This document shows, in pieces, positions 48,208 through 63,852 of a DNA stretch of 64,000 nucleotides (the stretch's first letter is position 1; the number at the start of each line of letters is the position of its first letter). The notes below the pieces were generated by a model. That model ran no database searches and was not told where the DNA came from. It saw nothing but the letters and a program-made list of their open reading frames with translations. The position numbers and the translations under genes are program-made. The stretch spans positions 62,001 through 126,000 of the forward strand of contig JAHBXV010000007.1 of assembly GCA_019636285.1 (NCBI GenBank), in the 5' to 3' direction. This stretch comes from Planctomycetaceae bacterium. GTDB taxonomy: Bacteria; Planctomycetota; Planctomycetia; Planctomycetales; Planctomycetaceae.

Positions 48208-48561
48208 TTAGTCGCCCCGGTTTTCAGTCGCATCTGCGACCTGCAATTCCAGATTCAGAACCTCCGCGATGCGTTCGATCGCGTCGCTCGGAAGTGGGGA
48301 TTCGGCCAAAAGAAATCGTTCCAACGCCTCCCAGGTCATGCCAGTTTGCGCCAGGAATTCGGGCAGGCTGAGCCCTCGCTGGTGAATGCCATGGATCGCT
48401 CGTCTGAGCTGGCCGCTGAAAGTCGCTTCCTCGGCTGCCAGTTCCATGCGACGGAACTTTTCGTCAATGAGTGGTCGCTCGGCTTCAACTTTCTCAGCCA
48501 GTTCCTTCATCCGGGCCGATTCTTCCGGGGTCAGCGTCCGCATCGTCCGCTTGATCTCCAT
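48208..48561 (-). CDS. XRE-type HTH antitoxin-like protein, copy 1
   Basis: The product has 117 residues. The N-terminal 50 are helical and charged (TPEESARMKELAEKVEAE). The C-terminal part FSGQLRRAIHGIHQRGLSLPEFLAQTG followed by EALERFLLAESPLPSDAIERIAEVL has the spacing of an XRE helix-turn-helix domain, with an LxRFL-type recognition helix. Its ATG overlaps the TAA of the toxin-like gene by one base (TAATG), and GGAGGAAAGATA precedes it. The partner gene upstream is the small 82-residue protein, so the order toxin then antitoxin is that of HigBA-like modules. A homologous pair is at 63511-64000. Confidence 0.68.
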   Translation of the reverse strand: MEIKRTMRTLTPEESARMKELAEKVEAERPLIDEKFRRMELAAEEATFSGQLRRAIHGIHQRGLSLPEFLAQTGMTWEALERFLLAESPLPSDAIERIAEVLNLELQVADATENRGD

Positions 48562-48809
48562 TATCTTTCCTCCGGTTCGTAGGCGGTCACCGGCAACATG
48601 GTCAACGGGTCTTCAAGCCACTCGAATACACAGACCAGCCATCGACCGGCTGTTGTATAACCGCGGATCAGCGGCAGACCCGTGGAATCACTGCGTTCGA
48701 TTCTCGCCCGCTGGCCGAACACCACTTCTTCAAATTCATCGGGGGTAATGCCGTGCTCGGCGAGATGGGCTATGGCTTCGTCCGTCCAAATGACCTCGAA
48801 CCAAGCCAT
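48561..48809 (-). CDS. Small toxin-like protein (BrnT/RelE-like), copy 1
   Basis: The product has 82 residues. The arrangement WTDEAIAHLAEHGITPDEFEEVV, then SDSTGLPLIRGYTTAGRWLVCVFEW and LPVTAYEP, resembles BrnT-type and related RelE-fold toxins, in which an N-terminal helix-strand region is followed by a strand with Arg and a hydrophobic strand. Toxin activity, probably as an endoribonuclease, is inferred only from size, fold pattern and partner. It overlaps the HTH gene by one base. The second copy ends at 63858 with the similar [19 protein letters not shown] segment. Confidence 0.6.
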   Translation of the reverse strand: MAWFEVIWTDEAIAHLAEHGITPDEFEEVVFGQRARIERSDSTGLPLIRGYTTAGRWLVCVFEWLEDPLTMLPVTAYEPEER

Positions 48810-48861
48810 TGTCGCTGTTTCCGATCGGCGTTCGCAATACGTGTGCGTGAAATGAGATGAC

Positions 48862-49989
48862 TCACCCGGAAATCGCCTCAACCCGCGCAATCTCATCGAG
48901 ACGAATCGGCCCCACGTCTTCCCAAGCGTCTGAATTTGCGGGCCGGGCGTGCAGGAACAACTCTCCGCCCGCACTTTTCCGCCCGTCGGGATGGCCCAGA
49001 AACTCGCGTCCATCATGCAGTGTGACGCGAACTCGGGCTGACTCATCGAACCCGAGTTGCGGATGGACCAGCGCTGTGAATCGCGACCAAGCCCAGCGCC
49101 AGAGAGTCCGTGCCGGATCGACCTGTCCCGCGAGATTAATCCAGTCTCGTTCGGCCAGGACAAGCTCCGCGAGTGTCGCCTGACGGCTCCACGCCTCCAA
49201 CGACTCGCTCAGCCACTTTCGCCGCGATTCGACCAGTTCCGCGAACGACTTTGGGCAAGTCCCGTTATCGACTTTCGTGGTGGCTTCCTGCATCAGCCGA
49301 TGACGACGAAACTCGCGATGGACGCGCTGAAAAACGTCCTCGCCGACATCGTCAACCGTGCGCAGTTCTCCGTCCTGGCAACCCGCGACGCGCGACCACG
49401 CCGGTTCAGTCGCAGCCAGGTGTTCATACACTTCAGCTACACTTTGCAGATACTCCCCGTCGGCCTCCTGGAGATCAGCCGCGCTGTCGGTATACGTTCG
49501 CCGGGCCTTGCGCGCAATCAACTCTTGCGCCTGGGCGACTGGCAGATCGAGCCAGACAGTCAGGTCGGGTCGCGGCGTGCGGAACACCTGGTGTTCGACC
49601 GTGAGGATTTCCCGAATCAATCGGTCCCGCTCCTCGGCCGTCCGTTTGGCTCCCTGGTGGGCAATGTTCGACGCGACAAACCGGTCGCAGACGACAATTT
49701 CGTGCGTCGCCAAAAGCCCGGCCAGATGGTCCCGCGATTCAAACCGGTCCCCGGCGTACAACAGGGCCGCCAGAAACGGGTCGACCTCATCGAGCGCGCC
49801 AAAGCGACCATTCAGGAATTCGCCAACCCTCGCCCCGAATGTCGTTTGCGTGTATCGAGGAAAGCTGACCAGCGATGTTTTGATGCCCTCAGACGTCAGC
49901 CGGGAGACCAGCCGTTCGGCTTGTGTCCCCTTGCCCGATCCGTCAATTCCCTCGATGGCGACCAGAAAACCCACGACAGCGTCTCGCAT
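48862..49989 (-). CDS. tmk: Thymidylate kinase with C-terminal extension
   Basis: The product has 375 residues, where Tmk is usually about 200-215. The first part (to about 230) is a dTMP kinase: P-loop AIEGIDGSGKGTQAERLV near 11-28, the DR(F/Y) motif CDRFVASNIAHQGAKR near 100-115, and VWLDLPVAQAQELIARKARR near 143-162. The remaining roughly 145 residues have a helical, Trp-rich segment (KWLSESLEAWSRQ, WINLAG, LWRWAWSRF) and a strand-rich end (RVRVTLHDGREFLG). This tail is not part of a normal Tmk. The ATG at 49989 is preferred to the TTG at 49992. It phosphorylates dTMP to dTDP. Divergent from the synthase gene at 50123. Confidence 0.82.
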   Translation of the reverse strand: MRDAVVGFLVAIEGIDGSGKGTQAERLVSRLTSEGIKTSLVSFPRYTQTTFGARVGEFLNGRFGALDEVDPFLAALLYAGDRFESRDHLAGLLATHEIVVCDRFVASNIAHQGAKRTAEERDRLIREILTVEHQVFRTPRPDLTVWLDLPVAQAQELIARKARRTYTDSAADLQEADGEYLQSVAEVYEHLAATEPAWSRVAGCQDGELRTVDDVGEDVFQRVHREFRRHRLMQEATTKVDNGTCPKSFAELVESRRKWLSESLEAWSRQATLAELVLAERDWINLAGQVDPARTLWRWAWSRFTALVHPQLGFDESARVRVTLHDGREFLGHPDGRKSAGGELFLHARPANSDAWEDVGPIRLDEIARVEAISG

Positions 49990-50122
49990 CAAACGGCTTG
50001 GCGGCCCGATTCACGTGTTCGCTCGGAACCAGACCTCGGGCGAAGAGGCGAAGTGCCTTCCAGGGCGATATCCTACCCGGCATGCGGTTGCCACCACAGT
50101 CTTCGCGAGAGACGCCGCTTCG

Positions 50123-63510: not shown

Positions 63511-63852
63511 TCAGGCGCCCTGTTCATGTTCCTGAAAAACCAGGCTCACGCCCATTGCCTCAATCAGTCGATCAATCGCATCGCTCGGCAGCGGGGCCTG
63601 TCCTCGCAGGAACGGTCCCAGGACGTCCCATTCGATGTTCGCGCGCTCCATCAATTGCGGGAGCAGAACGCCCCGACGATTGGTCCCGTGAATCGCGCGG
63701 CGAAGTTGCCCGCTGAATCCGGGCTCTTTGGCTGCCAGTTCCATCTTTCTCAAGTCGTCCTCGATCTTTGGCCGCTCTGCTTCGATAGCTGCCACACGCT
63801 CGCGCCAGGCGGTACGCTCCTCGTCCGTCAGGATTTTTACGTTGGGCTTCAT
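63511..63852 (-). CDS. XRE-type HTH antitoxin-like protein, copy 2
   Basis: The product has 113 residues. It aligns with the copy-1 protein: N-terminal charged helix (TDEERTAWRERVAAIEAERP), then FSGQLRRAIHG, PLPSDAIDRLIEAMG and a hydrophobic end. The central segment is diverged (RRGVLLPQLMERANIEWDVLGPFLRG), so the recognition helix probably binds a different DNA site. It starts five bases after the stop of the toxin-like partner upstream, on the same strand. The GTG/ATG choice is settled by ATG at 63852. Overlap of similarity with copy 1 shows a shared origin. Confidence 0.65.
   Translation of the reverse strand: MKPNVKILTDEERTAWRERVAAIEAERPKIEDDLRKMELAAKEPGFSGQLRRAIHGTNRRGVLLPQLMERANIEWDVLGPFLRGQAPLPSDAIDRLIEAMGVSLVFQEHEQGA

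Follow-up and report, generated by a model that had tools for sequence, protein, structure and literature searches.

A putative toxin-antitoxin pair with a BrnT/RelE-like fold and an XRE-type partner in a Planctomycetaceae genome

The two overlapping genes at positions 48208-48809 are a real and conserved pair, ordinary in kind and distinct in detail. They probably (about 0.68) constitute a type II toxin-antitoxin (TA) module of a distinct subfamily, with putative toxicity and an action like that of RelS-RelI of Mycobacterium tuberculosis. The subfamily is found mainly in one planctomycete-type phylum. It is apparently undescribed, as we found no description in a literature search with thin coverage of subscription journals, and PADLOC did not find the system. 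The TA reading is supported by a BrnT-type fold, profile matches, the invariant residue T75, conserved pairing, selection and the co-divergence of both proteins. The patchy distribution, the four copies found in a single genome and carriage by a virus lend additional support.

Locus layout and neighboring genes

Positions refer to the window, the whole stretch of 64,000 nucleotides analyzed. The features of the pair are as follows.

48561..48809, minus strand: putative toxin gene, 82 aa; open reading frame with a predicted BECR (BrnT/RelE-like) fold
48208..48561, minus strand: putative antitoxin gene, 117 aa; open reading frame with a predicted long N-terminal helix and a degenerate XRE-type helix-turn-helix (HTH)
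48559..48563, minus strand: TAATG, overlap of toxin stop and antitoxin start, read from the sequence
48569..48573, minus strand: GGAGG, Shine-Dalgarno-like, for the antitoxin (plus-strand CCTCC)
48391..48528, minus strand: long helix predicted by AF2, antitoxin residues 12-57, with a putative role in toxin binding or dimerization
48244..48426, minus strand: XRE-type HTH region, antitoxin residues about 46-106, from the AF2 model and PDB structure matches
48810..48861, minus strand: 52-nt gap between the stop of a thymidylate kinase-like gene and the toxin start, candidate leader or promoter region

A sequence-only reading had proposed open reading frames of 82 and 117 residues at 48208-48809 with a one-base TAATG overlap, all of which is correct. 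The toxin stop TAA (48563-48561) and the antitoxin start ATG (48561-48559) have a single base in common. The internal ribosome site that it named was also found, as a GGAGG inside the toxin gene, 7 nt before the antitoxin ATG. The overlap suggests that the two genes are cotranscribed. The thymidylate kinase-like gene (48862-49992) lies 52 nt upstream of the toxin in the same direction, and a class V aminotransferase of the cysteine desulfurase kind follows the pair after 69 nt. The 52-nt gap holds no consensus sigma-70 site, and an operator search at the family loci found no convincing palindrome common to them. The motif CGGTGTTGC occurs about 28 nt before the toxin start at three loci (L002, L004 and L008), and a weaker, similar GTATTGCGA lies at 48830-48850 in the window. 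These motifs upstream of the toxins could possibly be a promoter or operator.

The thymidylate kinase-like protein carries an additional C-terminal domain. This fusion is also present in the closest genome, and in most relatives the two halves come from different loci. Because the closest genome has the fusion but lacks the neighboring genes, it provides no clean empty site. A second pair of the same family is located 15 kb away on the same strand, with a toxin about 48% identical to the first. Its antitoxin spans 63511-63852, and the start of its toxin gene falls beyond the window end, the gene continuing to 64105 on the contig.

A putative toxin between BrnT and DUF4258

The 82-aa protein is predicted with good confidence to adopt a BECR (BrnT/RelE-like) fold. 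The AF2 model, built like that of the antitoxin from three sequences, reaches a pLDDT of 87.4 and a pTM of 0.78. It places helices at residues 10-17 and 23-31, followed by strands at 36-39, 46-51, 57-64 and 70-77, which is the arrangement of N-terminal helices and a four-stranded meander sheet that characterizes BECR/RelE-ParE proteins. All leading PDB matches found by Foldseek and VIA-align have this fold. The top Foldseek match is BrnT of Brucella (3U97; E 2e-3, TM 0.70), followed by a Salmonella TA toxin (7VD7) that itself strongly matches the BrnT profile. VIA-align gave Z scores of 10.0 for 7VD7 and 9.2 for 3U97, against 6.9 for colicin D and a value near 6 for RelE. HigB structures also matched but ranked below BrnT with both tools, and well below it in VIA-align. 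The earlier assignment as BrnT/RelE-like thus holds for the fold, and the structure search that it had suggested as a check returned BrnT as the best PDB match. E18, Y77 and the acidic composition of the toxin speak against a plain BrnT or RelE protein.

Sequence comparisons place the family less simply. The window toxin matches Pfam DUF4258 (PF14076) with 20 bits (E 8.6e-4; cut-off 25) and BrnT (PF04365) with 14.4 bits (E 0.049; cut-off 34.5), both below threshold, and HigB gave no Pfam match. A paralogue in the same genome (C26) barely exceeds the DUF4258 cut-off with 25.1 bits. Individual scans of 28 family toxins gave some match to DUF4258 for 20 of them and to BrnT for 19. In profile-profile comparisons, the family matches DUF4258 (probability 96.5, E 1e-9) about as strongly as BrnT (96.1, E 3e-9). 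The match between BrnT and DUF4258 themselves is weak (16.6, E 1.5e-3), and the family bridges the two. By these comparisons the toxins appear equally close to BrnT and DUF4258 and fall cleanly in neither. PDB sequence searches with single proteins and with the family profile found no toxin relative, and only the fold search found one. We would not file the pair under BrnT, DUF4258 or HigBA.

The active-site region sets the family further apart. The toxicity of BrnT reportedly depends in part on K16, H17 and R72 (PMC13284704). With the catalytic positions placed via 3U97 aligned through the BrnT profile, these residues correspond to E18, H19 and Y77 in the window toxin, with the histidine alone being kept. 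Across the family, column 18 is mostly E, Q or D and column 77 holds only Y or F. T75 is invariant (100%) and S40 is conserved in 93%, H15 and H19 in 71% each, and R56 is R in 71%; W8, G50 and A76 are conserved as well. A serine or threonine in strand 4 is common to many BECR RNases (PMC3482391), a position that T75 would fit. The near-invariant histidines of DUF4258 at columns 11 (95%) and 59 (89%) are found in no member of the family. The window toxin keeps H15, H19, S40, R56, T75 and Y77 and has D41 and L45 where most of the family has R. Family toxins are acidic, with a median net charge of -10 and a median pI of 4.3, compared with a net charge of about 0 and a pI of 6.7-6.9 for BrnT and DUF4258. 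In our view, this acidity is the most interesting and least explained feature of the toxins.

Comparison with described systems underlines this intermediate position. BrnT-BrnA of Brucella abortus has the same toxin-first order and predicted fold, and its landmarks at the H17 position (H19), W, G and S/T are kept. BrnA is an RHH protein, whereas antitoxins of the window family are XRE-type. The shared features with DUF4258 are the weak Pfam match, a profile similarity equal to that of BrnT and a T-A-Y-E strand. Most sampled DUF4258 loci encode a CxxC zinc-type downstream partner (MqsA-type antitoxins), which is not seen in the window family. DUF4258 has itself been called undescribed in the literature (PMC11980606). 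HigB-HigA likewise combines a toxin-first order with an XRE-type antitoxin, but the window toxin is much nearer to BrnT in structure.

Partner types, distribution and co-divergence

The AF2 model of the antitoxin (pLDDT 80.1, pTM 0.53) consists of a single helix over residues 12-57 followed by short helices at 66-73, 77-84 and 92-101. Both the long N-terminal helix and the XRE-type C-terminus had been read from the sequence and reappear in the model, the latter in a degenerate form. The short helices match XRE-type HTH domains in the PDB including SinR, HipB and HigA, and the top VIA match is an antitoxin chain of a Streptococcus pneumoniae TA system (6AF3). All HTH Pfam matches of the window antitoxin are below threshold. 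The model points to helix 12-57, which runs into the first HTH helix, as a candidate toxin-binding or dimerizing segment. XRE-type HTH partners occur at all family loci and fall into two types, canonical XRE and degenerate HTH, with the window antitoxin belonging to the latter. It lies outside the canonical partner profile and still matches that profile at 4e-8, which indicates that the two types are homologous.

The toxin gene is present in 24 of 99 related genomes, and in a phylum-wide sample the family profile matched in 38 of 392, with strong matches mostly from the window's own taxonomic family and class. This spread is patchy. The source genome carries four paralogous pairs, the other three toxins being 41-51% identical to that of the window. 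Most copies of the family are intact, and a few other sampled copies carry in-frame stops. The partner is encoded immediately downstream of the toxin at every one of the 33 genomic loci, as well as on a viral contig. Of these 34 loci, six had been left out of partner-profile building, and one of the six is weak (L027). The partner is also present at all seven strong matches found later. At 26 of 30 loci, the spacing between the two genes lies between -17 nt (overlap) and +13 nt (gap). Among the weaker, sister-type toxins, 14 of 15 have other partners, several of them RHH-looking as judged by eye.

Purifying selection acts on both genes, and toxin and partner diverge together. Between the two closest copies, dN/dS is about 0.15 for the toxin and 0.08 for the partner, values that are rough because synonymous sites are near saturation. 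For either gene dN is much lower than dS, including among paralogues of the source genome. Across loci, toxin distances track partner distances (Mantel r 0.42, p 2e-4), as they do in the degenerate-HTH set alone (r 0.53, p 2e-4); the canonical XRE set (n=11) shows no such correlation. The partner type clusters on the toxin tree, most of which is poorly resolved, with 3 changes compared with 8.7 for shuffled labels. The recurring order, the low dN relative to dS and the distance correlation argue that the pairing is more than chance.

The viral copy was found with a profile subset (A4), while viral scans with single proteins and with profile A5, as well as searches of phage records, yielded no family match. 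On this contig (L040:1501-2218), the toxin is flanked by two genes that, judged by eye, resemble those for a prohead protease and a phage major capsid protein. Its antitoxin is encoded as two genes overlapping by ATGA. The first product is a 93-aa helical protein aligning with the N-terminal half of the antitoxin, and the second is a 65-aa HTH protein aligning with the C-terminal half. The split suggests that the antitoxin comprises two separable modules, a neutralizer and an HTH. A distant match on a Pseudonocardia plasmid (L048:2501-3079) encodes a toxin 39% identical to that of the window with a partner 12 nt downstream. This partner is RHH by its look, and the locus would thereby illustrate partner exchange.

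Proposed action and alternative explanations

We suggest that the 82-aa BECR-fold protein acts as a toxin and is a relative of BrnT as well as DUF4258. Translation of the antitoxin would begin at the overlapping start, served by a separate ribosome site. Most likely, its N-terminal segment and long helix dimerize and cover the active face of the toxin as RelI does on RelS. The XRE-type domain might autoregulate the operon or, if degenerate as in the window, mainly hold the complex together. The free toxin would then arrest growth, and its most plausible target is RNA of the translation machinery. The earlier proposal of a type II module fits the gene order, the overlap, the XRE-type HTH and the conserved pairing, and stands to that extent.

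RelS-RelI (Rv2663-Rv2664) is a suitable model in view of the gene order, the separate ribosome site of the antitoxin and its long helix. The RelS-RelI pair likewise encodes a BrnT-like toxin first and an HTH-domain antitoxin second (PMC13284704). RelI places an N-terminal toxin-binding helix over the active site, followed by a long helix and a C-terminal HTH, a region with no evident DNA binding (PMC13284704). The catalytic residues of RelS are K9, H10 and H64, and K9-H10 aligns with K16-H17 of BrnT (PMC13284704). The corresponding residues in the window toxin are E18-H19, with E at the lysine position. RelI has been described as specific to actinomycetes and as having a ClpC2-like HTH, whereas the window antitoxin is XRE-type, and we found no sequence link between the two pairs.

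The replacement of BrnT K16 and R72 and the acidity of the toxins, unusual for an RNA-binding enzyme, count against a type II toxin. The same is true for the module of the lack of a recognized operator, promoter or PADLOC match. The chief alternative is a non-toxic regulatory pair, in which a BECR-fold pseudo-enzyme that lost catalysis would serve its HTH partner as co-regulator or ligand sensor. The replaced BrnT residues, the acidity, the loss of both DUF4258 histidines and the lack of the basic C-terminal tail seen in many sister toxins agree with this alternative, which we nevertheless consider unlikely. H15, H19, R56, S40, T75 and Y/F77 are conserved beyond what a scaffold needs, and a DNA-binding role is itself doubtful for many degenerate-HTH partners. 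Furthermore, most copies are intact, and TA modules typically show such patchiness, multiple copies and carriage by viruses. Within the TA reading, we tentatively propose an acidic BECR subfamily lacking both the BrnT K/R and the DUF4258 histidine pair. Its members might use a new residue set (H15/H19, S40, R56, T75 and Y77) or have a target other than bulk RNA, with an HTH partner ranging from canonical to degenerate and split in a phage.

An ordinary BrnTA or HigBA system that belongs to a known family would account for the BrnT fold, the toxin-first order and an HTH antitoxin as in HigA, and two BrnT-HTH fusions are listed in PMC11980606. Such an assignment is very improbable given the 14.4 bits against a required 34.5 for Pfam BrnT, the missing HigB family match and the ranking of HigB structures well below BrnT. 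BrnT loci in the same phylum sample also have BrnA-type partners and K/H/R signatures, both of which are missing here. The idea that the source genome retains a decayed TA remnant, suggested by D41, L45 and the in-frame stops of some other copies, can be largely set aside as both window reading frames are intact with a clean overlap, the conserved residues are kept and dN is well below dS among the genome's own paralogues.

As an intermediate group, the family links BrnT with the functionally undescribed DUF4258, and it shows one toxin scaffold combined with antitoxins of three kinds, RHH, zinc-type and XRE-type. The gradation of partners from canonical to degenerate HTH and the split viral antitoxin provide natural constructs for separating neutralization from DNA binding. 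A toxin this acidic and poor in lysine and arginine would also test which residues a BECR toxin needs. Sister BECR toxins at four further loci (L146, L148, L153 and L155) have very basic tails at the C-terminus; the partner encoded downstream of them is short and acidic, and this group looks like another undescribed pair.
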